Source: a virus. Taken from it: 46,207 nucleotides of DNA. A program made the translations under genes and the position numbers. Position 1 is the first letter of the stretch; every line of letters starts with the position of its first letter. Below are positions 17,142 through 40,524 of the stretch, one piece after another. Below the pieces are notes generated by a model. It had not been told where the DNA came from. It was given only the letters and a program-made list of their open reading frames with translations, and did not search any database. The stretch spans positions 1-46,207 of the IMG/VR virus record IMGVR_UViG_3300044997_001296; one strand, 5' to 3'.

Positions 17142-18197
17142 TTACTTGTCGTACTTGGACGAAAAGAGATCGTCGATCCACTCTTCGGCGCCGTAGCCAA
17201 GCTCGTTCTTCCAGTAGTTGCGGAGCCGATCATAGTCGGCATCGCTGAGGGTCGCGGTCTTGACCAGACCTTCGACGGCAGCCTGCTTGATCTCCTTGTC
17301 CAGCGAGGACGCCATGACGTTCTTGATCTTCTCGCCTTCGGCGGAAAGGGCCTGAGCGGCGGTCTCGGCCTCGCCGAGCATCGCAGCCACATACTCGCTG
17401 GGGAAGCCCGCACTGGCGCACTTCTTGATGAATGCTTCTCGGCTTGCGCCCTTCAGATCAGAAATCTTCACGAAACCAGATGCCGTGCGCACTTCGTTTG
17501 CCTTCGATGTGGCTTCGGCGATCTTCTTTTCAGCCTCTTCCACAGAGTTGACGATAGACATGCGGTAAGCATGGCGCTTGGCGATCTTGGCGCTGCGCTC
17601 CATCTGCTCGCGTGCACCCTCTTCAATCTGAGCGGCGAGTGCCTGTCGGCGCTCATTGCGAGCAGCCAGAATCGTGTTCACCAGTTCGGTGTCGCCCGCG
17701 GCCTTGGCGGCCTCGATAGCCTCGGCGCTGAGCTGCTGAGCGCTGGAGAAGACAATCTTGCGGCGTGGCTGAGCCGAAGCTTCCTTGCCGCGGACAATCT
17801 TCTTGTCCTCATCCATCTCTTCCTCATCGACCTCGTCCTCCTTGGACTTGAACTGATGCTTCTTCAATGCGTCGGGAAGCGACTTCTTGGCGGTGACCAC
17901 TTCGGTCTCCGCTTCTGCGGTTGCTTCTTTGTCTTCGAAGTTCGTCTCGTCGTTCTTCAGCGATTCGAGATACTGCTTGACTTCCTCGGACATGCCCTTG
18001 CCCTCAGCGTCTTCGAAGTTCGTCTCGTCGTTCTTCAGCGATTCGAGATACTGCTTGACTTCCTCGGACATGCCCTTGCCCTCAGCCTCGCGCACCTGCG
18101 CCAGGCGAGAACCAAAGCTGTCCCAGTCAATGCCTGTGAATACTTTTTCCGAGTCCAGAGCGTCACCCTGAATCTTTGTGGGGAAAATGCGTGCCAT
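17142..18197 (-). CDS. Hypothetical virion-region protein with a perfect internal duplication
   Basis: 351 residues. I start it at the ATG at 18197 because AGGAGG lies 12 bases upstream; an in-frame TTG further up would overlap that signal. Residues 38-63 and 64-89 are identical 26-residue repeats (GMSEEVKQYLESLK core), encoded by an exact 78-bp tandem duplication. An acidic stretch (DEVDEEEMDEDKK) and long alanine-rich helices follow; the middle contains RTAS. The C-terminus (YDRLRNYWKNELGYGAEEW) is aromatic. Its ATG directly follows the stop of the DUF192 gene (TAAAATG). No family recognised; scaffold or internal head protein is possible. Confidence 0.68.
   Translation of the reverse strand: MARIFPTKIQGDALDSEKVFTGIDWDSFGSRLAQVREAEGKGMSEEVKQYLESLKNDETNFEDAEGKGMSEEVKQYLESLKNDETNFEDKEATAEAETEVVTAKKSLPDALKKHQFKSKEDEVDEEEMDEDKKIVRGKEASAQPRRKIVFSSAQQLSAEAIEAAKAAGDTELVNTILAARNERRQALAAQIEEGAREQMERSAKIAKRHAYRMSIVNSVEEAEKKIAEATSKANEVRTASGFVKISDLKGASREAFIKKCASAGFPSEYVAAMLGEAETAAQALSAEGEKIKNVMASSLDKEIKQAAVEGLVKTATLSDADYDRLRNYWKNELGYGAEEWIDDLFSSKYDK
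17931..18086 (-). repeat. Perfect 78-bp tandem duplication, two copies, inside a coding region
   Basis: Copies 17931-18008 and 18009-18086 are identical base for base and in frame (26 codons). Identity at third codon positions points to a recent duplication. Confidence 0.95.
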
Positions 18198-18198
18198 T

Positions 18199-18690
18199 TT
18201 AGTTGTTGTCCTCCTCAAGAGAGCCTTCTAGAAGATTCACTTCCAGCTTTTGCCAGTCGATACCTGGCTTTTTCATCGCCATTTTTTGAAAACGACGATT
18301 TTCATGGTTTTGAGCATAGCGCTCGCCTTTTTGCCGAACTCGCAGAGCGTTGTCGGCATACTCAATCAGGTCACCTTTGGCTATGCCCAGTCGCGAAAAT
18401 GCACCTCGCTTAGCCTCGACGACAAACCGCACATCGTCCGTCTGTGGCTCCACGCGTGTGGGGTCATCAGGACTCATGTCGGCAAGATGTACAATTCGAC
18501 CGCTGTCATCACAAAAGGCGAGACTGAGGCCGAACGGCACGTTTTTATTCCAGAAGCCATAGCGGTCTGTGTGCGGAAACACGAACAGAACCGCTTCATC
18601 ATCCTCAAGAGGCTCCGCGAACATCAATCCGCGGGTCCGCTTTTCATCGTTATCCGCCACAAAGCGAATTCGGAATCGAGGCTGATCCAT
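18199..18690 (-). CDS. DUF192 family protein
   Basis: 163 residues. The ATG at 18690 overlaps the stop of the gene before (TAATG) and has GGAGG upstream. The DUF192 pattern is visible: RTRGLMF (18-24), VLFVFP (34-39), FWNKNVPFGLSLAF (46-59), then RIVHLADMSP and VVEAKRGAFSRLGIAKGD. Family proteins are small beta-rich domains, often exported, with no settled biochemical role; some homologues have been linked to allergen-like folds. Here no signal peptide is present, and a polar tail of about 45 residues follows the domain. The family motif usually reads W-M-K-N; here Asn replaces Met. Its presence among phage virion genes is unusual. Confidence 0.8.
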   Translation of the reverse strand: MDQPRFRIRFVADNDEKRTRGLMFAEPLEDDEAVLFVFPHTDRYGFWNKNVPFGLSLAFCDDSGRIVHLADMSPDDPTRVEPQTDDVRFVVEAKRGAFSRLGIAKGDLIEYADNALRVRQKGERYAQNHENRRFQKMAMKKPGIDWQKLEVNLLEGSLEEDNN

Positions 18691-23035: not shown

Positions 23036-24151
23036 TCAACCTGCACGATCCAGCTCGGCTTTTGCCGTAGATAGGGCATTCGCTACGGTCATATCCATGT
23101 CATAGTAGCGATAGTTACCCAGTCTGCCGCCAATGATCAGGCTTGGCTCTGCCTCGGCAAGCGCGCGATAGCGCGCATAGAGCGCATTGTTGGCGTCATC
23201 GTTGACAGGATAAAACGGCTCTTTTGTCTCTTGAAAGAGCGCGGGGTACTCTCGTGTGATAATCGTGTGCGGGGTCTGCAAAAACTCGAAATGCTTGTGT
23301 TCGACAATGCGCGTAAAAGGCACCGATTCTTCAGTGTAGTTGATAATCGCATTTCCCTGAAAGTCACCCTCCAATCTCTCCTCTTCAAATCGGAGTGAGC
23401 GATACTCCAGCCGACCATAGCAGTGACCGTACAGGGCGTCAATAGGTCCTGTGTACACGGTCTTGGAGCCAAGTGCATCCCAGGCGGCACGATCTGAGAG
23501 ATAGTCTACGATCAACCTCACTTCAATCCCGTCCAGAATGCGCTCGATCATCGCCGTGTAGCCTCCAATGGGAATGCCTTCAAAGCTATGTGAATCGTGG
23601 AAATAGCGATCATTCATCGTTAGCCGAACAGGAAGTCGTTTGATGATCGAGGCGGGCAGGTCTTTAGGGTCGCGCCCCCACTGTTTCATGGTGTAGCCTC
23701 GGATGAACATCTCGTAAAGCGTCGGACCCACCTGGCTTAAGGCATGCTCCTCCAGATTGGCAGGCTTCAGGCCAGCAAAAGGAGCAGTCTCGGAAGCCAG
23801 CTTAGCCTCCGCCTGACTTGGGGTGAGAATATCGGGCCACACGTGATGGATCGTGGAGAGATTGATCGGAAGGGAGTACAGACGCCCCTGGTAGTGTGCT
23901 CTGGTGCGCAGGCTGAAATGATTGAAATCAGCAAAACGATTGATGTACTCCCATACATAGGGCTGAGATGTGTGGAAGCAATGTGGACCGTATTTGTGCA
24001 CAGGAATACCGTCTACAATTTCGGTGTGACAGTTTCCTGCAATATGGTTTCTCTTATCAATGACCAGCACTCGCTTTCCGCGGTCAGTTGCCTCACGTGC
24101 AAATACGGCCCCAAACAATCCCGCCCCGACAACCAGATAGTCATATCGCAT
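23036..24151 (-). CDS. glf: UDP-galactopyranose mutase
   Basis: 371 residues from the ATG at 24151, placed so that the protein begins MRYDYLVVGAGLFGA, the usual start with the FAD-binding GxGxxG Rossmann motif. It keeps family signatures: VLVIDKRNHIAGNCHTE, VHKYGPHCFHT, TLYEMFIRGYTMKQWGRDP, and the C-terminal GRLGNYRYYDMD that carries active-site tyrosines and the FAD contact. The enzyme converts UDP-galactopyranose to UDP-galactofuranose in the cytoplasm, the donor for galactofuranose in cell-surface glycans. Length matches bacterial Glf. No Shine-Dalgarno is visible; a TATAAG element ends only 7 bases before the ATG, so the mRNA could be nearly leaderless. The stop of the homing endonuclease gene lies 8 bases upstream. 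In a phage it may alter host surface sugars or decorate virions. Confidence 0.93.
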   Translation of the reverse strand: MRYDYLVVGAGLFGAVFAREATDRGKRVLVIDKRNHIAGNCHTEIVDGIPVHKYGPHCFHTSQPYVWEYINRFADFNHFSLRTRAHYQGRLYSLPINLSTIHHVWPDILTPSQAEAKLASETAPFAGLKPANLEEHALSQVGPTLYEMFIRGYTMKQWGRDPKDLPASIIKRLPVRLTMNDRYFHDSHSFEGIPIGGYTAMIERILDGIEVRLIVDYLSDRAAWDALGSKTVYTGPIDALYGHCYGRLEYRSLRFEEERLEGDFQGNAIINYTEESVPFTRIVEHKHFEFLQTPHTIITREYPALFQETKEPFYPVNDDANNALYARYRALAEAEPSLIIGGRLGNYRYYDMDMTVANALSTAKAELDRAG

Positions 24152-24158
24152 GATTGCG

Positions 24159-24164
24159 CTTATA
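24159..24164 (-). promoter_or_regulatory. Candidate TATAAG promoter element before glf
   Basis: CTGTATAAGCGCA on the minus strand, identical over 13 bases to a site upstream of portal. It overlaps the stop codon of the homing endonuclease and would place the transcript start at or next to the glf ATG. Candidate only. Confidence 0.3.
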
Positions 24165-25002
24165 CAGATGCCATCGAAGAAACATTCGACCATTTTCTGA
24201 TCATCTTTGGAACATCAAATTCTTGAAGATGGCGCAGTATTTCCTCGCCATGAAATCCTGCGACCGACCACACATACACGCTCTTCATGGGCCGAACATG
24301 AGCCTGGTAAGATGGAGGGCACACTGCCGATAATTGGGCCTTGATCCATTCGCACATGAATTTTGTGCCAACTACATGCAGTCGCAGTTTGGTTCGATTC
24401 TTCGAATATGTTCTGTGAATGCAGCCATCTCCGTCGATGTAGCCGATAATGAAAGCCAGAGCAAGATTTTCAGACAAGTTTTCAGGAGGCTGTATGATTA
24501 GGCTTTTTTGAGGAACAATTCCAAAGTTCCGTTCAAGGTCCTCGATTATTTTTCGGACGCCTTTGAATTCCAGAGCCACGTAGCGTTTGTTTTTGTTTTT
24601 GCCATAATACAGATTGCCACTGTAGTTGATAGCTTCGCGAAATTTTTCAAGATGATCCGCGTCAACATCCGAAAGCTTTATTCGAAGACGCCTTTTGTCT
24701 TGGGAAACACATCCATCTGCCGCTATAAAGCCAGCCCAATAACAATTCTCAAGAGTGGGATGAGAAAAGTAATCAAAGTTCAGGTCGTGCTTTCTGTGAG
24801 CATGTGAAAGATCACGTTTGAGTCCTAAACTCTTGGCCTTGAGCGACACAGCAGCAATTGTTCTTCCAGGAAGAAGTTTGCAAATTTCTTGGTTTGACAT
24901 TGTCCTGTAGTAAGACGTGATGATGTCAATTTCAAGCGGGGACCACAACGGTTGTTTTGGCATAGCAAAATATTCGGCATTGATGTGGACCATACCTTTC
25001 AT
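24160..25002 (-). CDS. Free-standing LAGLIDADG homing endonuclease
   Basis: 280 residues from the ATG at 25002; internal ATG codons at residues 4 and 14 are also possible, as no Shine-Dalgarno settles it. Residues 18-62 are a Myb/HTH-like segment (WSPLEIDIITSYYRTMSNQE, then AVSLKAKSLGLKRD), common in DNA-binding parts of homing enzymes. Two LAGLIDADG motifs follow: YWAGFIAADGCVS near 88-100 and FIIGYIDGDGCI near 189-200. It is more AT-rich than both neighbours, as expected for a mobile gene. It lies between a virion-region gene and glf, ending right at the glf start, so it was probably inserted in an intergenic junction. Confidence 0.88.
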   Translation of the reverse strand: MKGMVHINAEYFAMPKQPLWSPLEIDIITSYYRTMSNQEICKLLPGRTIAAVSLKAKSLGLKRDLSHAHRKHDLNFDYFSHPTLENCYWAGFIAADGCVSQDKRRLRIKLSDVDADHLEKFREAINYSGNLYYGKNKNKRYVALEFKGVRKIIEDLERNFGIVPQKSLIIQPPENLSENLALAFIIGYIDGDGCIHRTYSKNRTKLRLHVVGTKFMCEWIKAQLSAVCPPSYQAHVRPMKSVYVWSVAGFHGEEILRHLQEFDVPKMIRKWSNVSSMASV

Positions 25003-26223: not shown

Positions 26224-28365
26224 TTAGCGCGGTCCCGTGCGAGCAATGCGAGATTTGGGAAGCTGCTGCATCACTTTCGCGGTCAATGCCTCATAGGCTA
26301 CGGCGGCCACAGCATCACAGATGTCGTCTTTGTAGCCTGATAGTGCCTTTATCTCAAAGCGCTTGCTTTTCCACACTTTTTGCAGGAAGGTAAACTGATT
26401 TTTAGCCTCCGCGATCTCATTGAGTTCGCGCACCTGCTCTTTGGCATCCTTGTATTTGCCTCCAGAAAAGCCATAGATGTCGATGCGTTGTTCGCGCATA
26501 AGCTGGATCAGCTCTGTGTAGATTTTGCCCTTGTACTCCTGATTAAACTGGCGCTCAATGGCATTGATCCCCATGCTTTTCAGTCTTAATATCGAGGATT
26601 GACTATGCCACTGGTCAAAGCTCACTTGCTTGAATCGAAAGCGCTTGTGAAGATCGATCACATAGTCTTCCACCTCTTTCTCGGCCACAGGCTGGTTTTT
26701 AGTGAGCGGGTTCCAGAAGTGAATATGGTCGATCACCACGCGGCGCAGCGGCCTGTTGTCGGGGCCGATCTGAACGGGGTAAATCTGCTCCGTATGTGCC
26801 ACAGCCAGTGCATAGTAGTCGCTGGTGCGGGCGGGGTCGAGGTGCAGATAATACTCAATCAGCGGCTGGCCATATTCCGCCCTGGGTGTCGTGCTGGACA
26901 TCGCCCAGAGATTGCTCACCTGCTCTGGAGTGAACATGGGGTCGCTGGAAGCCGCGCCAAACTCAGCGCCAAACTGCATCTGGTATTCGACGGGGTCCTT
27001 GCGTTTCTGCTCTTCCAGCCAATCCTGGTCGATACTCGGGTTGGTGAGCCAGGTGGGAAGCCGCATCACCAGCGTTGTGGGGTCATCCTGCCTGTTTTCA
27101 TGCAGATCGTACAGCAGCCCAATGGGACCTTTGGGGTTGGAGAGCATCATCATCTTGAAGTCTTTGCCAAAGGTAGCGCCTGAAGGTTTGAGATCGTCGT
27201 AAAGCGCATAGTCGAGGCCCGAGTCGGGATTGTCTCCCGCCATCGCCGCCACCTCGTCCATGATGATCGACCAGCAGGTAAGACCCACAAGGCCTGAGGC
27301 GTTGGAGGAGCCGCAGCGCAGCACCAGAGAGCCTGCAAAGAGATTGATCCCTTTTTCCGCCCGCCGCTCGTTCTCTTGGCGGTCGTGATCGGTGAAGAAC
27401 CGCATTTCCAGTTCTGTGTCTTTACCGACATAGGGCTGGAAGAAGGGTGACGCCAGAACGGTCTGTTTGATCTTGGAGAAGATGGCCTTCTTCGCCTGCT
27501 CTTCGTTGCGCGCCACGTTCAGGAGGACGATTTCATCAAACTCCATCAGACCATAGCGCGACTGAGGATGCCCCATAGAGAGCAGTCGGTATAGCTCGTA
27601 GAGGGCCATAACCGATACCAGGAACGATTTTCCAGATCGGCGGCCAAGCACCAGCACCAGCTCCTGGAACTTATAGCGATTACCGCACTTTTCCAACACC
27701 TGCTTGCGCAGCAGGGGGTCAAACTCGGGCGCAAAAAGCAGGTCGCGCTCCGTCTCATAGTTGTCCGTGATGGGCCGCTCGATCAGACCATCGATTTTAC
27801 GGGCATCATCAGGGTTCGTGGCCTCTTCGCGCGCCGCTTCGTAGCGGGCCTCGCGCACGGCTTCATCAAAGCGATCACAGGTCAGACAGGGAGAGTTGGT
27901 GACCGAAAAGACGTTTCTGAGCTGCTTTCCGTCCTGACGGCCTTTATAGACCTTCTCTTCGTTTTCACGTACATACTTCCAGACACAGCTGTCACAGGTG
28001 CCCGAATTACGAACCTCATCGGGCACATCCTCGATCTCCAGATCGGTGTTGCCCTCCTGTCCCATGTAGAAGCACTTGAGGATCAATCGCTGCCACGGAT
28101 AGGGCCGCAGTCCGCAGAAGTAGGGATGCTCGATAAAGGTGACGATATCGACAATCTGATCGGGGTTGAAGCGAGTCTTTTCAGGTTTAGGCGGGGGCAA
28201 AATCTCCGCGCGCACCATCGGCCTTACTTCATCTTCGTACTCGTCTTCGTATCCCTGGGTCTTGAAGTTGTCTTCAAGAGCCGCAAGCTGCTGCATCAGG
28301 GTTGCTTTTGCATCCTGCTGCTGATAGTTTGGTTTAGCTGGTCTGCCGCGCTTGGGTCCTGGCAT
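26224..28365 (-). CDS. terL: Terminase large subunit
   Basis: 713 residues, ATG at 28365 with AGAGGTGA upstream. The ATPase domain has Walker A GRRSGKS (241-247) after VLVL and a Walker B WSIIMDEVAAM with Asp370/Glu371. The RNase H-like nuclease domain shows YLHLDPARTSDYY (Asp510), VSFDQWHS (Asp584) and YKDDICDAVAA near 690 as the acidic triad. This motor pumps DNA into the prohead and cuts the concatemer. An unusual four-cysteine cluster (C124, C127, C160, C163; GTCDSC and SPCLTC) lies between the adenine-binding region and Walker A and may bind zinc. Its neighbour upstream is the likely small subunit. Confidence 0.95.
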   Translation of the reverse strand: MPGPKRGRPAKPNYQQQDAKATLMQQLAALEDNFKTQGYEDEYEDEVRPMVRAEILPPPKPEKTRFNPDQIVDIVTFIEHPYFCGLRPYPWQRLILKCFYMGQEGNTDLEIEDVPDEVRNSGTCDSCVWKYVRENEEKVYKGRQDGKQLRNVFSVTNSPCLTCDRFDEAVREARYEAAREEATNPDDARKIDGLIERPITDNYETERDLLFAPEFDPLLRKQVLEKCGNRYKFQELVLVLGRRSGKSFLVSVMALYELYRLLSMGHPQSRYGLMEFDEIVLLNVARNEEQAKKAIFSKIKQTVLASPFFQPYVGKDTELEMRFFTDHDRQENERRAEKGINLFAGSLVLRCGSSNASGLVGLTCWSIIMDEVAAMAGDNPDSGLDYALYDDLKPSGATFGKDFKMMMLSNPKGPIGLLYDLHENRQDDPTTLVMRLPTWLTNPSIDQDWLEEQKRKDPVEYQMQFGAEFGAASSDPMFTPEQVSNLWAMSSTTPRAEYGQPLIEYYLHLDPARTSDYYALAVAHTEQIYPVQIGPDNRPLRRVVIDHIHFWNPLTKNQPVAEKEVEDYVIDLHKRFRFKQVSFDQWHSQSSILRLKSMGINAIERQFNQEYKGKIYTELIQLMREQRIDIYGFSGGKYKDAKEQVRELNEIAEAKNQFTFLQKVWKSKRFEIKALSGYKDDICDAVAAVAYEALTAKVMQQLPKSRIARTGPR

Positions 28366-28375
28366 AGGTCACCTC

Positions 28376-29179
28376 TTACATATTCTCCTGAAGCCTATCT
28401 CGAAGCTCTGCGACCTTTTCGCGAATCAACTTCTTATCAGCCTCGCTTTCCATGCTGTTGTGTAAATCCATCAGAATCTCAAAGATGTTGAAGCTGGACA
28501 TCAGCGATTCATCGCGCTCCTTCTTCAGCTCTTTCAGGCGCGTGGTCAATCGCTCCACCATGCTGGCGCGCTTGAGTTTAAGCTCTGGATTTTTCGAGCA
28601 GTCCATCCCGCGTATGTCATCCAGCTCCACCAGAAGCGCCAGTTCCACGAGATAGAACTCGCGGCCAAGCCACTCTGCCACCTCTTCTTCGCGTCCACGA
28701 TAGGTATCCAGGCCCTTGGTGGCAATATTGCGAAGGTTGCAATGCTGCTCCATATGGGTTTTGACCTGCACCCAGTTGAGCTTGGCGTTGAAGTAGGTTT
28801 CGAAGAAGTTGAGGACCGCCTGAGGCTTTTTGCCGTTGTTGATGTACACATGCTCGGCCAGCTCTCGAAAAGGACTGGTGCAAATCGCGCATCGCGGCTC
28901 CATAAACTGCGGATAGTGAATAGAGAGCGGATACTCCCTCGGGATCGCAATAACAGGCTTATCGCCCTCCTTTAACTCGCGAAACATGCGAAGCTGCCGA
29001 TCCGACAGATCAACACGGGCCAGCGCGTCTTTTTCCTCAAGGTCCAGAGCCTCAATGATTTCATGGGTGTTTTCTGTCCCCAGGGTGTCAAGATTATTCT
29101 CTCCGCCCTGATCGTCTGGAAAACCTAGATGTGTGTCCGTACTCAATGTTGGTAGCTTCTCCTCACCCGTATTCTCCAT
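28376..29179 (-). CDS. Putative terminase small subunit
   Basis: 267 residues from the ATG at 29179; an in-frame TTG at 29230 abuts the preceding terminator and is unlikely. It sits 10 bases upstream of the large terminase, the classic place for the small subunit, which recognises viral DNA and loads the motor. Near residues 105-155 a CAIC motif is followed by an HTH-like pattern and a His-rich end (VQVKTHMEQHC), a possible zinc-bound DNA-binding unit. The C-terminal 100 residues are long charged helices (ERLTTRLKELKKERDE) suited to oligomerisation. No strong family signature, so the call relies on position and architecture. Confidence 0.6.
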   Translation of the reverse strand: MENTGEEKLPTLSTDTHLGFPDDQGGENNLDTLGTENTHEIIEALDLEEKDALARVDLSDRQLRMFRELKEGDKPVIAIPREYPLSIHYPQFMEPRCAICTSPFRELAEHVYINNGKKPQAVLNFFETYFNAKLNWVQVKTHMEQHCNLRNIATKGLDTYRGREEEVAEWLGREFYLVELALLVELDDIRGMDCSKNPELKLKRASMVERLTTRLKELKKERDESLMSSFNIFEILMDLHNSMESEADKKLIREKVAELRDRLQENM

Positions 29180-34082: not shown

Positions 34083-35171
34083 TTAAGCGGCTGTCTGGGC
34101 CTCCTTGGTCTTTGCAAACCTATCAATAATTCGCAGCATTCCCGATTGAACCACGAGATCGGCTGCAACGTTCTGCCGTATCTTATTTGCGATGTCTAAG
34201 AGTTGAGTTGTGATGTCCACGATCTGCGGCCCTTTGAAAAGCGTGATCATTTCTGCAATTTCTAAGTCGCGCTCCGACTTGTCAACCTTGAGCAGTCGGT
34301 ACTCCGCCATCGTCATCAAGATTCGGCCCGCATCTTCCAGAAGCGCGCTTAAATCGCGCCCCTCGACATGTGCCGCCTTGATAAGGCGATAGGCCTCGCC
34401 GTGGTTGGTATTGGCTATCGCCTTCAACAGATCGATTGCCAGACCACGAGGGCCTCGTCCCAGAACGGCGCGGACATTGTCTTCTGTCACGCCGATCAAA
34501 GACACCTGCTCCAGGATGACCAGTGCGGTACGAGCGCTTCCCTGGGCTGCTTGAATGATCACATCCAGGGCCGCATCTTCCGCGGTCATCGCTTCTTCTT
34601 TTACAACGTTTCGCAAAATCGCCTTACAATCCGCATTGGAGACGCGTGCAAGCATGTGGTGCTGGCATCGAGAACGAATGGCTGGAAGCACTTTGTGAGG
34701 GTCGGTGGTGCACAGGAAGAAGATCACATGAGGAGGCGGCTCTTCCATGATCTTCAGAAGCGAGTTCTGCGCCTGTGTGGTGAGCATGTGGCACTCATCG
34801 AGGATAAAGATGCGATAATCGCCCATTGTCGGCTGGACACGCATCTTCTCAGCGATCATCTCTCGCATCTCATTAACGCCGCCATTAGTGGCGCAGTTCA
34901 CCTCGATCACGTCGCGGTGACGGTCTTCGCGAATCAACTGAGAGGAGCGGCTGTTGGGATCGGGTTCACTCTCTCCTTTGGCGCGGTTTTCACACAGCAG
35001 CGCCATTGCCATGATGCGCGCCAGAGTGGTTTTGCCCGTGCCTGGAGGCCCCGACAGCAGGTAGGTGTTGACATGACTGCCTGTGGCGATCTGTGCCTTA
35101 AGCACGCGCGAGACATGCTCCTGGGCGACGTCGGAGAAGCGATAGGGACGATATTTGTTGTAAAGGCTCAT
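34083..35171 (-). CDS. dnaX: DNA polymerase III gamma/tau-like clamp loader ATPase
   Basis: 362 residues, ATG at 35171 overlapping the stop of the deaminase gene (ATGA). MSLYNKYRPYRFSDV is the standard DnaX start. Walker A GPPGTGKTT (41-49), Walker B FILDECHM (Asp125/Glu126), sensor 1-like CTTDP and the arginine finger SRC (167-169) are all intact. It therefore should be an active ATPase that opens and loads the DnaN clamp. The zinc-binding loop of bacterial DnaX, between Walker A and B, normally has four cysteines; here the equivalent stretch (about 60-85) is reduced to Cys60, so zinc binding is lost. It stops near the gamma length, with no tau extension. Confidence 0.95.
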   Translation of the reverse strand: MSLYNKYRPYRFSDVAQEHVSRVLKAQIATGSHVNTYLLSGPPGTGKTTLARIMAMALLCENRAKGESEPDPNSRSSQLIREDRHRDVIEVNCATNGGVNEMREMIAEKMRVQPTMGDYRIFILDECHMLTTQAQNSLLKIMEEPPPHVIFFLCTTDPHKVLPAIRSRCQHHMLARVSNADCKAILRNVVKEEAMTAEDAALDVIIQAAQGSARTALVILEQVSLIGVTEDNVRAVLGRGPRGLAIDLLKAIANTNHGEAYRLIKAAHVEGRDLSALLEDAGRILMTMAEYRLLKVDKSERDLEIAEMITLFKGPQIVDITTQLLDIANKIRQNVAADLVVQSGMLRIIDRFAKTKEAQTAA

Positions 35172-35680
35172 AGGGCTAGTACGACTCCGTTGAATCTCAG
35201 GGGAATGTCAAATTTGGGAAAGTCACAGACTTCCAGCGCAACGCCTGCTTCGGACAACAGAGATTCTGCGCTGTCCAGAGACTCCTTCCAGTGATCGGGC
35301 GTGGCCAGGGCGATGGTCTTGTGGCACACCACGCGGTCGATCCCCGTTTGAATGATTGCGCGAGCGCATTCCACGCAGGGCCGAAAGGGAACATAGAGCG
35401 TGGCTCCTGCGATGGACTTTCCGTATTTGGTCGCATTGTAGACCGCATTGCGTTCAGCATGTTCGACAAACTGATACTTGAGGGGCCGCTCCCAGCGCTC
35501 TGGAGTCTCCTGCACCTGCGTACAAAAAGAGTTGATTCCACTGGAGAGAATCTGCATCTCACCCTCGATACTGTGAGCGATCACCGCTCCGTTTTGTGTG
35601 GAAGGGTCACGAGAGTCCTGAGCAAGCAGCAGCGCCTGCTGCATTCCCAGTATGTCCATTTCGACATAGGCACTTGGCAT
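35168..35680 (-). CDS. Deoxycytidylate (dCMP) deaminase
   Basis: 170 residues from the ATG at 35680 (AGGA just upstream); a longer frame to 35716 runs into a terminator. Zinc deaminase motifs are present: EHAERNA (His74, catalytic Glu76) and RPCVECARAI (Cys102, Cys105). An extended loop before the first motif (SSGINSFCTQVQETPERWER) resembles dCMP deaminases of phages and bacteria. It would turn dCMP into dUMP, the precursor for dTMP, and pairs logically with the dUTPase and ribonucleotide reductase encoded 4-6 kb away. It overlaps dnaX by 4 bases. Confidence 0.88.
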   Translation of the reverse strand: MPSAYVEMDILGMQQALLLAQDSRDPSTQNGAVIAHSIEGEMQILSSGINSFCTQVQETPERWERPLKYQFVEHAERNAVYNATKYGKSIAGATLYVPFRPCVECARAIIQTGIDRVVCHKTIALATPDHWKESLDSAESLLSEAGVALEVCDFPKFDIPLRFNGVVLAL

Positions 35681-35717
35681 AATCCTATCTTTGTGCGTTT
35701 TTGCCTCTCGTGGCACA

Positions 35718-35768: not shown

Positions 35769-36311
35769 TCAGGAAGTTTTAGGACGCAGCATCATTGTCA
35801 TCATGCGGCCTTCAAGGGCGGGCTGTGATTCGACTACGCCTACTTCAGAGAGCTGAGCTGCCAGGCGATTGAGTCGCTCTCGTCCCAGTTCGGGATGCGA
35901 CAGCTCTCGATTCCGAAACTGACAGATGAGACGCACCTTATCTCCATGCGCCAGAAACTCTCCCGCTTTGCGCTGTGTGATTCCCAGGTCGTGATCCGAA
36001 ATACGAGGGCTGATCTTCAGGCTTTTGGTCTCCTGGACTCGCTTGTGATTCTCTCGCTTTCGCTTGGACTCCAGGTACTTCAGCTTGCCGTAGTTGGCAA
36101 TCTTGCACACGGGAGGCTGAGCGCTTTCAGCCACCAGAACCAGGTCCAAACCTTCTTCTTTGGCCAGGTTCAAGGCTTTGCGCGAAGTCATAATCCCTAA
36201 CTGCTCTCCCTCTTCGTCCAGTACACGAACTTCAGGAATGCGCAGAAGGCGCTCGTTGATGTTAGGCGGCGGTTCGCGTCGCGGCTTGCGGGTATTGTTG
36301 TTGTTTGTTAT
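35769..36311 (-). CDS. infC: Translation initiation factor IF3, probable AUA start
   Basis: 180 residues, the same length as E. coli IF3. The N-domain is complete: INERLLRIPEVRVLDEEGEQ, then GLDLVLVAESAQPPVCKIAN, YGKLKY; then a lysine-rich linker; then the C-domain SLKISPRISDHDL, GDKVRLICQFRNRE and LEGRMMTMMLRP. No ATG, GTG or TTG exists in frame upstream of the ATG at 36191, which would cut off the conserved N-terminus. An ATA codon at 36309-36311 lies 5 bases after GGGAAGGA (36317-36324), an excellent ribosome binding site. Cellular infC genes are known for AUU-class starts, which IF3 itself disfavours, giving self-limitation. Here the start is inferred from the reading frame. Confidence 0.93.
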   Translation of the reverse strand: MTNNNNTRKPRREPPPNINERLLRIPEVRVLDEEGEQLGIMTSRKALNLAKEEGLDLVLVAESAQPPVCKIANYGKLKYLESKRKRENHKRVQETKSLKISPRISDHDLGITQRKAGEFLAHGDKVRLICQFRNRELSHPELGRERLNRLAAQLSEVGVVESQPALEGRMMTMMLRPKTS

Positions 36312-36343
36312 TTCGGTCCTTCCCTGTCGCCATCGTGGGCGAC
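36309..36343 (-). promoter_or_regulatory. IF3 translation start region: AUA codon, strong Shine-Dalgarno and leader hairpin
   Basis: In order on the minus strand: a hairpin GTCGCC/GGCGAC with a 6-base loop (36326-36343), the Shine-Dalgarno GGGAAGGA (36317-36324), then ATA (36309-36311). A strong ribosome binding site with a poor start codon is the arrangement that lets IF3 repress its own translation. Confidence 0.6.
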
Positions 36344-36380
36344 AATTATCTGTTCTACGTCTTTTTTGTTTGCACGGTTT

Positions 36381-37295
36381 TTAGGCAAATCGAAATTGCT
36401 GTTCGTTAAGCACAGCAATGTGACCTGGACTCTGCACCTCAAGCTCAAACAGCGCCACCACCCTGGGTTCCAGCGCTTTTGCTGCCACGGCGCGACAGAG
36501 ATGAGTGGGATGAGCCTGAGCGCAGTAGCGGATATCCTGCGCGCTCTGGGCGGCGGATACGAGATCGTGTTGGGATTTGGCCTGGACGGGGATGATCACG
36601 CGCCGAGCCTTCGCATCCACTCCTACATACATGTCATCGATCTCAATCTGCCCCACTCCTGGGATCGAAGTGCGCAGGTGACTCTGCAAATGGGTGACTT
36701 GAATGCCAAGAAACATGTCCAGGATGCCATTGTGCCGCATTCGCGTCAGCATTCCCTGCTCATCAGCAGCGAGACATTCGGCCACAGGCTTGGGCGTGCA
36801 ATCGTGTACGATAATTGGTTCCAGGAGTTTGTTGGGGAGAATGTGGCAGGTGGTCCATTGAGCAAACTGGTATTTGCCCTTTCCCGTAAACTCAATCACC
36901 CAGTGAAAGCCTTTATTGGCAGTGATTCGGATAGATTCGGGAAGCTCCTGGCGGGAGCGGAACGTGTAGAGGACATCTCCAATGTTTTTGATCGCATAGC
37001 GCTCGCACACCTTTTCGAGGTCTCGGCGCGTGAACGGAATCACACTGGAGCTGGGAGAGTATCGCTCCTGAAATATCGTCTCGATCACCTTTGAATAGGC
37101 ATCGCTGGGGTTTTCAGGCGAAAAAAGCACGCCAGAACCAGAGTTTGGCGTGACAGATGTGATGAAATCTCCCAGGGCAACCTGGCGCATCGGATCAACA
37201 GAGCTGGGGCGATTCATGGAGTGGAATCTGGCCTGACACCTACGGTTTGCGTTTTTGCATCGCAACAGGGCGCAGATGGCAGGCCAGAAGATCAT
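36381..37295 (-). CDS. Putative PD-(D/E)XK nuclease
   Basis: 304 residues if started at the ATG at 37295, which overlaps the preceding stop as TAATG; the first 26 residues are Cys/Arg-rich and unlike the rest, so the ATG at 37217 is possible. In the C-terminal half, GQIEIDDMYVGVDAKARRV is followed by IIPVQAKSQHD, which fits the acidic, acidic, Q/E-x-K core of PD-(D/E)XK enzymes. A helix with alternating hydrophobics follows. This suggests a DNA endonuclease, perhaps for host DNA degradation, recombination or restriction. Target and subfamily unknown. It is just upstream of IF3 and may share its transcript. Confidence 0.55.
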   Translation of the reverse strand: MIFWPAICALLRCKNANRRCQARFHSMNRPSSVDPMRQVALGDFITSVTPNSGSGVLFSPENPSDAYSKVIETIFQERYSPSSSVIPFTRRDLEKVCERYAIKNIGDVLYTFRSRQELPESIRITANKGFHWVIEFTGKGKYQFAQWTTCHILPNKLLEPIIVHDCTPKPVAECLAADEQGMLTRMRHNGILDMFLGIQVTHLQSHLRTSIPGVGQIEIDDMYVGVDAKARRVIIPVQAKSQHDLVSAAQSAQDIRYCAQAHPTHLCRAVAAKALEPRVVALFELEVQSPGHIAVLNEQQFRFA

Positions 37296-40029: not shown

Positions 40030-40524
40030 TTATATTCCCGTGTGGCCAAATCCTCCAATACGCTGGCTTTCGTTTCGCGAAGTGTTATCGCTGAAATCTT
40101 CCTCGATCTGAACATCGGGCAGCTTGCATACCACCATTTGAGCGATGCGGTCTCCGTGATTGACAGCAAAAGGCTCCGTTCCGTGGTTGATCAGAATCAC
40201 GCCAATCTCAAACTTCTCGCCATCTCCGTCGTAGTCGGCGTCAATGGTGCCTGGAGTGTTGAGTACGGTGATCGCTTGTTTGGCGGCAAGACCTGATCGT
40301 GGTCGAATCTGGACTTCGTATCCTGCGGGGATGCGGATGTTGAGTCCAGTTTTGACAATCGCCTTGGCCCCTGGCGCAATCACGACAGTGGCTCTTTCGC
40401 TGGAGTTTTCCTCGTAGGGCGTCCAGGCGCACAGGTCATATCCAGCCGCATGTGCTGTGGACTTCGAGGGGAGCATTGCGCCTGCTCGAAAGCGTCGAAC
40501 TCGGATTAGTGCTTGATCATTCAT
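40030..40524 (-). CDS. dut: dUTP diphosphatase (dUTPase)
   Basis: 164 residues from the ATG at 40524, which overlaps the end of the upstream gene by 8 bases. All five trimeric dUTPase motifs are present: AGYDLCA (27-33), PRSGLA (75-80), PGTIDADYDG (91-100, with catalytic Asp97), GDRIAQMV (124-131) and RIGGFGHTG (155-163). It hydrolyses dUTP to dUMP and pyrophosphate, keeping uracil out of DNA and feeding dTMP synthesis. Length is slightly above the bacterial norm because of a small insertion before motif 2. Together with dCMP deaminase and ribonucleotide reductase it forms the nucleotide supply set. Confidence 0.95.
   Translation of the reverse strand: MNDQALIRVRRFRAGAMLPSKSTAHAAGYDLCAWTPYEENSSERATVVIAPGAKAIVKTGLNIRIPAGYEVQIRPRSGLAAKQAITVLNTPGTIDADYDGDGEKFEIGVILINHGTEPFAVNHGDRIAQMVVCKLPDVQIEEDFSDNTSRNESQRIGGFGHTGI

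Follow-up and report, generated by a model that had tools for sequence, protein, structure and literature searches.

Our analysis of a 46,207-base IMG/VR virus record (hereafter the window, the whole stretch of DNA that was studied) points to a jumbo-type phage that translates its own IF3 from AUA, and we think it probable, by analogy with bacteria, that the phage has retained the IF3-dependent self-limitation of cellular infC. The sequences document the elements of this proposal, which are the phage context of the gene, the identity of its product as IF3, the AUA start (assigned by comparison) and the long-term conservation of a non-canonical start. Cellular infC commonly has a rare start; what is unusual here is its occurrence in a phage.

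The infC-like coding sequence (positions 36311-35769, minus strand) comprises 180 codons and a TGA stop. The initial annotation had proposed that a full-length IF3 is encoded here among phage genes, a view upheld both by the gene context and by the protein families: the product matches the Pfam domains IF3_N (PF05198, 4e-27, from residue 23) and IF3_C (PF00707, 1.5e-27) in order and above the curated cut-offs, the NCBIfam infC equivalog TIGR00168 (1.7e-49) and phrog_9787, the phage IF3 family annotated as 'translation initiation factor' (7e-40), and this within a virus contig carrying structural and packaging genes. Of the extent originally given (35769-36343), only 35769-36311 is coding, and 36312-36343 is leader. 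An AlphaFold (AF2) model (mean pLDDT 85.7) consists of two IF3 domains linked by a helix, with a 13-residue tail of low confidence. Both modelled domains have the IF3 fold (C domain, TMt 0.94 against 1tig; N domain, TMt 0.82 against 1tif and 0.89 against 6o6d), and the PDB entries matched best are isolated IF3 domains or IF3 bound in 30S complexes.

The C domain retains the residues corresponding to R112, R131, R133, R147 and R168 of Escherichia coli IF3 and differs from it at other basic positions (R99>S, K110>T, R116>E and R129>Q), the serine at the R99 position being also seen in the cellular IF3 structure 5me0_Y. The interdomain linker, 23 residues long in all 80 sampled cellular proteins and 18-25 residues across phage IF3s, measures 21, 22 and 21 residues in the window protein and its two close relatives, that is, 1-2 residues short of the cellular length; it has 20-22 residues in all five rare-start phage IF3s described below. 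Because shortening of the IF3 linker reportedly disturbs start-site decoding (PMC8266586), an altered fidelity of the window protein is possible, and since four basic positions of the C domain are changed as well, its discrimination between start codons may not be intact.

The start codon is assigned to ATA at 36309-36311 (minus strand), 5 nt after the Shine-Dalgarno (SD) sequence GGGAAGGA (36317-36324), with a predicted anti-SD pairing of -7.3 kcal/mol (-7.6 and -8.2 kcal/mol in the two relatives). It is the sole well-placed candidate in its frame, which is bounded upstream by the in-frame TAA at 36381-36383 that ends the preceding gene. From this stop down to the first in-frame ATG (36189-36191, codon 41) no ATG, GTG or TTG occurs in frame. 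The window gene therefore has a start codon with a third base other than G and no usable canonical alternative, as expected of a self-limited infC. Directly upstream of the SD lies a hairpin (TGTCGCC-CACGAT-GGCGACA, 36325-36344), with a weaker stem-loop (UUGUC/GGCAA) at the equivalent position in L014, one of these relatives; it could be due to chance. A sigma-70 promoter was not found upstream of the gene, and a string ACAAAA..ACGTA.AA that precedes IF3 and is present once in the window resembles one in L014.

Querying viral contigs with the window IF3 as a single protein gave no match, and two close relatives were found by an alignment-guided scan. L014 is a 379-kb jumbo-phage contig (378,848 bases) whose IF3 is 68% identical to that of the window, and L015 is a contig of 112,111 bases with an IF3 that is 58-59% identical. 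In L014, ATA occupies the homologous position and shares with the window the AAGGA core and the spacing of the SD (GGCAAGGAAGGAACGAA-ATA in L014 versus GACAGGGAAGGACCGAA-ATA in the window). In L015, the codon at this position is ATT, preceded by AAAGGAG, and a stop occurs seven codons before it. The rare start is thus conserved among the relatives. An in-frame TTG 10 codons upstream of the L014 ATA was considered and rejected as a start, since it has no SD (+0.6) and neither the window nor L015 has an equivalent codon. The three proteins form one clade (100/98) in a tree of 91 IF3 sequences, without firm placement among bacteria; the most similar cellular proteins are those of Bacillota (50-53% identity).

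When codons 2-41 of the window gene are compared with those of L014 or L015, silent change has reached saturation (pS 0.83 and 1.02, respectively) and replacement change is low (pN 0.16 and 0.22). Over the 22 codons before the start, by contrast, identical residues number 7/22 between the window and L014, where the SD itself gives the shared stretch, and 0/22 and 1/22 for the other pairs. Because codons 2-41 are conserved as protein and the upstream codons are not, the N-terminus of IF3 is very probably made and begins at ATA, as the initial annotation had proposed in describing a 180-residue protein that appears to start at ATA behind a strong SD and whose conserved N-terminus offers no in-frame ATG, GTG or TTG. 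That annotation had also named two outcomes that would overturn it. One was a start at the internal ATG (36189-36191), which would shorten the protein to 140 residues and leave half an N domain. In the window, the predicted anti-SD pairing ahead of this ATG is -6.4, but the SD is weak at the same position in L014 (-3.0) and L015 (-2.8), and the short form would cut into an IF3_N match that begins at residue 23; with codons 2-41 evolving as protein, we regard it as very unlikely to be the main start. The other was a sequencing error that hides an upstream ATG. An ATG with a 23-codon open frame (36331-36333) does overlap the IF3 start region in another frame, where a frameshift introduced by sequencing or assembly might have hidden it, but L014 has the same ATA frame without such an ATG and with its other frames closed, and ATA or ATT at the homologous position in two independent contigs argues that the window ATA is not a sequencing artefact. 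Host contamination would be at odds with the phage genes that flank IF3 in all three contigs and with the lack of rpmI or rplT beside it. Taken together, these comparisons leave frameshift and contamination the least probable of the readings considered here, refuted for practical purposes.

The L014 record also carries about 33 tRNA genes (L194-L200), including two tRNAs with the amber-reading anticodon CUA that ARAGORN calls Pyl, and a tmRNA gene (L196:66-423) with the predicted tag AENNFAFAA. An initiator tRNA of its own was not found in the record, neither of its two tRNA-Met genes having the three G-C anticodon-stem pairs of the initiator. The terminase large subunit (L192) contains an in-frame insertion of ~360 residues inside the Walker A motif (GRRSGK / S), beginning ALALDTPVLTTKGW and ending LVPTHN, which resembles an intein. 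The L015 terminase seems to contain a similar insertion (open frame of 1054 aa), and the window copy (26224-28365) lacks an intein-like insertion.

The phage genes of the window encode a terminase large subunit, portal, clamp loader, sliding clamp, two sigma factors, dCMP deaminase and ribonucleotide reductase, together with a delta-like clamp-loader subunit recognized by a weak match below the family cut-off. Within the replication block, IF3 is preceded by an uncharacterised gene (36381-37295, minus strand), which has a 57% identical neighbour in L014, and is followed, on the same strand, by a dCMP deaminase-like gene (35168-35716) and the clamp loader ATPase (34083-35171), both assigned by family matches and the latter having served to retrieve related phages. 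Ribonucleotide reductase, metallopeptidase, clamp loader, sigma, clamp, delta and a second sigma form a block common to the window, L014 and L015. In the window and L014, IF3 immediately precedes the dCMP deaminase or clamp loader, and in L015 it directly follows the ribonucleotide reductase; occupying two gene slots, it varies in position, and the rare start is nevertheless kept. More distant phages (L074-L094) contain much of the replication block without IF3 nearby, and IF3 was not found in ten records of this set, one of them of 316 kb. The cellular infC-rpmI-rplT operon has no equivalent here: no match to rpmI or rplT (L35/L20) was obtained in the window, L014 or L015, and the window IF3 is followed by dCMP deaminase and clamp loader instead. 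As a companion translation gene, bS21 was not found in the five records searched. Elsewhere in the window, a UDP-galactopyranose mutase, a surface-sugar gene, lies at 23036-24193 (GLF, 2e-73; phrog_9677, 3e-122), and the coding stretch 17142-18218 contains an exact 78-bp (26-codon) tandem duplication (17931-18086), either recent or an assembly effect.

To compare cellular with phage genes, a single rule was applied to all, selecting before the conserved core the codon with the strongest anti-SD pairing among ATG, GTG, TTG, CTG, ATT, ATC and ATA, with a small bonus for canonical codons. In a cellular sample biased to the nearest relatives, mostly Bacillota, the best-supported start was rare in 79 of 80 infC genes (ATT 49, ATA 16 and ATC 14); many of these 79 additionally contain a canonical codon that lacks a good SD, and 29 contain none. 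By contrast, a canonical codon is available in 61 of the 66 phage IF3 genes, a sample found largely through one conserved motif. This count treats as canonical nine genes in which ATT or ATA outscored the available canonical codon, often for want of a strong SD or because the two codons lie side by side. Four phage genes (those of the window, L015, L022 and L051) have no canonical codon at all, and the fifth exception is L014 with its single in-frame TTG lacking an SD. In the same phages, the rule called a rare start in 0/35 clamp loaders and 0/24 sigma factors. A third control, the gene at 40030 with a dUTPase-like N-terminus, was set aside: the rule flagged 1/20 as lacking a canonical codon, but the gene begins well before the aligned portion, and the one locus with no canonical codon further upstream is truncated by the contig edge.

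The IF3 genes of the viral contigs L022 (5968-6450; ATT) and L051 (5968-6447; ATT or ATA) lie on separate, weakly placed branches of the tree. L051 has phage-like neighbours (dUTPase, ClpP/head-maturation-protease-like, polymerase exonuclease and helicase), whereas those of L022 gave no match to a phage family, which makes its viral nature less sure. A minimum of four start-codon switches is needed on the tree, or two without L022 and L051, and as the deep branches are not firm we draw no claim from these numbers. SD-backed TTG starts occur in the window at the portal (12522), a sigma factor (34000), ribonucleotide reductase (43821) and a gene at 29146, a minority of its genes, which is ordinary. 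A suggestion in the initial annotation that such genes hint at an altered choice of starts was abandoned, because UUG is one of the codons accepted by IF3 (PMC4611024); they therefore say nothing about an altered IF3.

IF3 discriminates against start codons that lack a 3' G, AUA included, and codons ending in G escape (PMC4611024). Under the self-limiting model, which we favour because the phage gene has the cellular infC arrangement of a strong SD and a rejected codon, the host initiator tRNA would translate phage IF3 from AUA with the aid of the SD, and IF3 would destabilise the 30S initiation complexes formed on a codon without G as its third base. Translation of phage IF3 would stay low as long as total IF3, host and phage together, suffices for the 30S subunits, and would rise when IF3 becomes limiting, so that the phage would have IF3 topped up without overshoot when 30S subunits outnumber it. 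We infer that phage IF3 binds the host 30S subunit, that phage or host IF3 represses the AUA start and that the top-up benefits the phage; host IF3 alone could do the repressing. Phages in general do not need such self-limitation, because most of their IF3 genes have canonical starts available.

Other explanations can be envisioned for the AUA start. It might be a plain throttle that keeps phage IF3 synthesis constantly low, host IF3 being always in excess and the phage adding little, with no feedback. AUA is indeed a weak start, for which a strong SD would partly compensate, but an ATG with a weaker SD would also give low output, and the combination of a strong SD with a rejected codon is that of nearly all sampled cellular infC genes; we hold the throttle to be a possible, clearly less probable explanation than self-limitation. 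Alternatively, the rare start may have come with a captured bacterial infC and be of no present use. The rare starts of the nearest cellular genes, ATA included, would fit this origin, but identity among the three phage genes is 58-68%, their silent sites are saturated and IF3 takes up two different gene slots; moreover, a single change would turn ATA into ATG, yet the clade contains no lineage that has switched, whereas most phage IF3 genes have canonical starts. Such inertia seems to us improbable. Only slightly less doubtful is a more elaborate scenario in which the phage IF3, with its short linker and changed basic residues, would have altered discrimination, the AUA start would sense how the balance of IF3 to 30S shifts during infection, and the feedback would reset the start choice of ribosomes in the infected cell.

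Rare-start and canonical-start phage IF3 genes offer a natural comparison for whether phages want IF3 balanced or overproduced. In practical terms, a gene caller limited to ATG, GTG and TTG would trim the window IF3 to 140 residues and lose half of its N domain. IF3 in huge phages was reported in 2020 (Al-Shayeb, PMC7162821) and 2021 (PMC7824862), and S. aureus infC starts at AUA according to ribosome profiling, likely for feedback (PMC13009471). Each is thus known, and the combination is, as far as we could find, apparently unreported: no rare-start phage IF3 was described in the open-licence literature searched, and we found no virus reported to retain the IF3 rare-start brake on its own IF3 copy.

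Among known systems, sigR of Streptomyces, with a GUC start repressed by IF3 (PMC5472188), is likewise a regulatory gene whose non-canonical start answers to the IF3 level, but it is a cellular sigma factor rather than IF3 and does not belong to a phage. The IF3s of huge and jumbo phages (Al-Shayeb 2020), among them Agrobacterium phage Atu_ph07 (AUZ94813.1, PMC7824862), Sinorhizobium phage Phosso and Cronobacter phage GAP32, are of the same family and also have no rpmI-rplT found beside them. Their identity to the window protein is low (for instance, 33% for Phosso and 33% for Atu_ph07), and those examined have an ATG, GTG or TTG available at the conserved N-terminus, which the window clade lacks. 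Similar in arrangement are the cellular infC genes, including those of E. coli (AUU), Streptomyces (AUC) and S. aureus (AUA); autoregulation of infC through an AUU or AUC start has been described (PMC5472188). Like the window gene, these cellular genes encode a two-domain, full-length IF3 behind a strong SD and a start codon with a non-G third base, the presumed target of IF3 discrimination. Unlike them, the window IF3 lies in a phage replication block without rpmI-rplT downstream and belongs to a clade with a linker of 21-22 rather than 23 residues, and it is by analogy with these cellular genes that we propose feedback for the phage.
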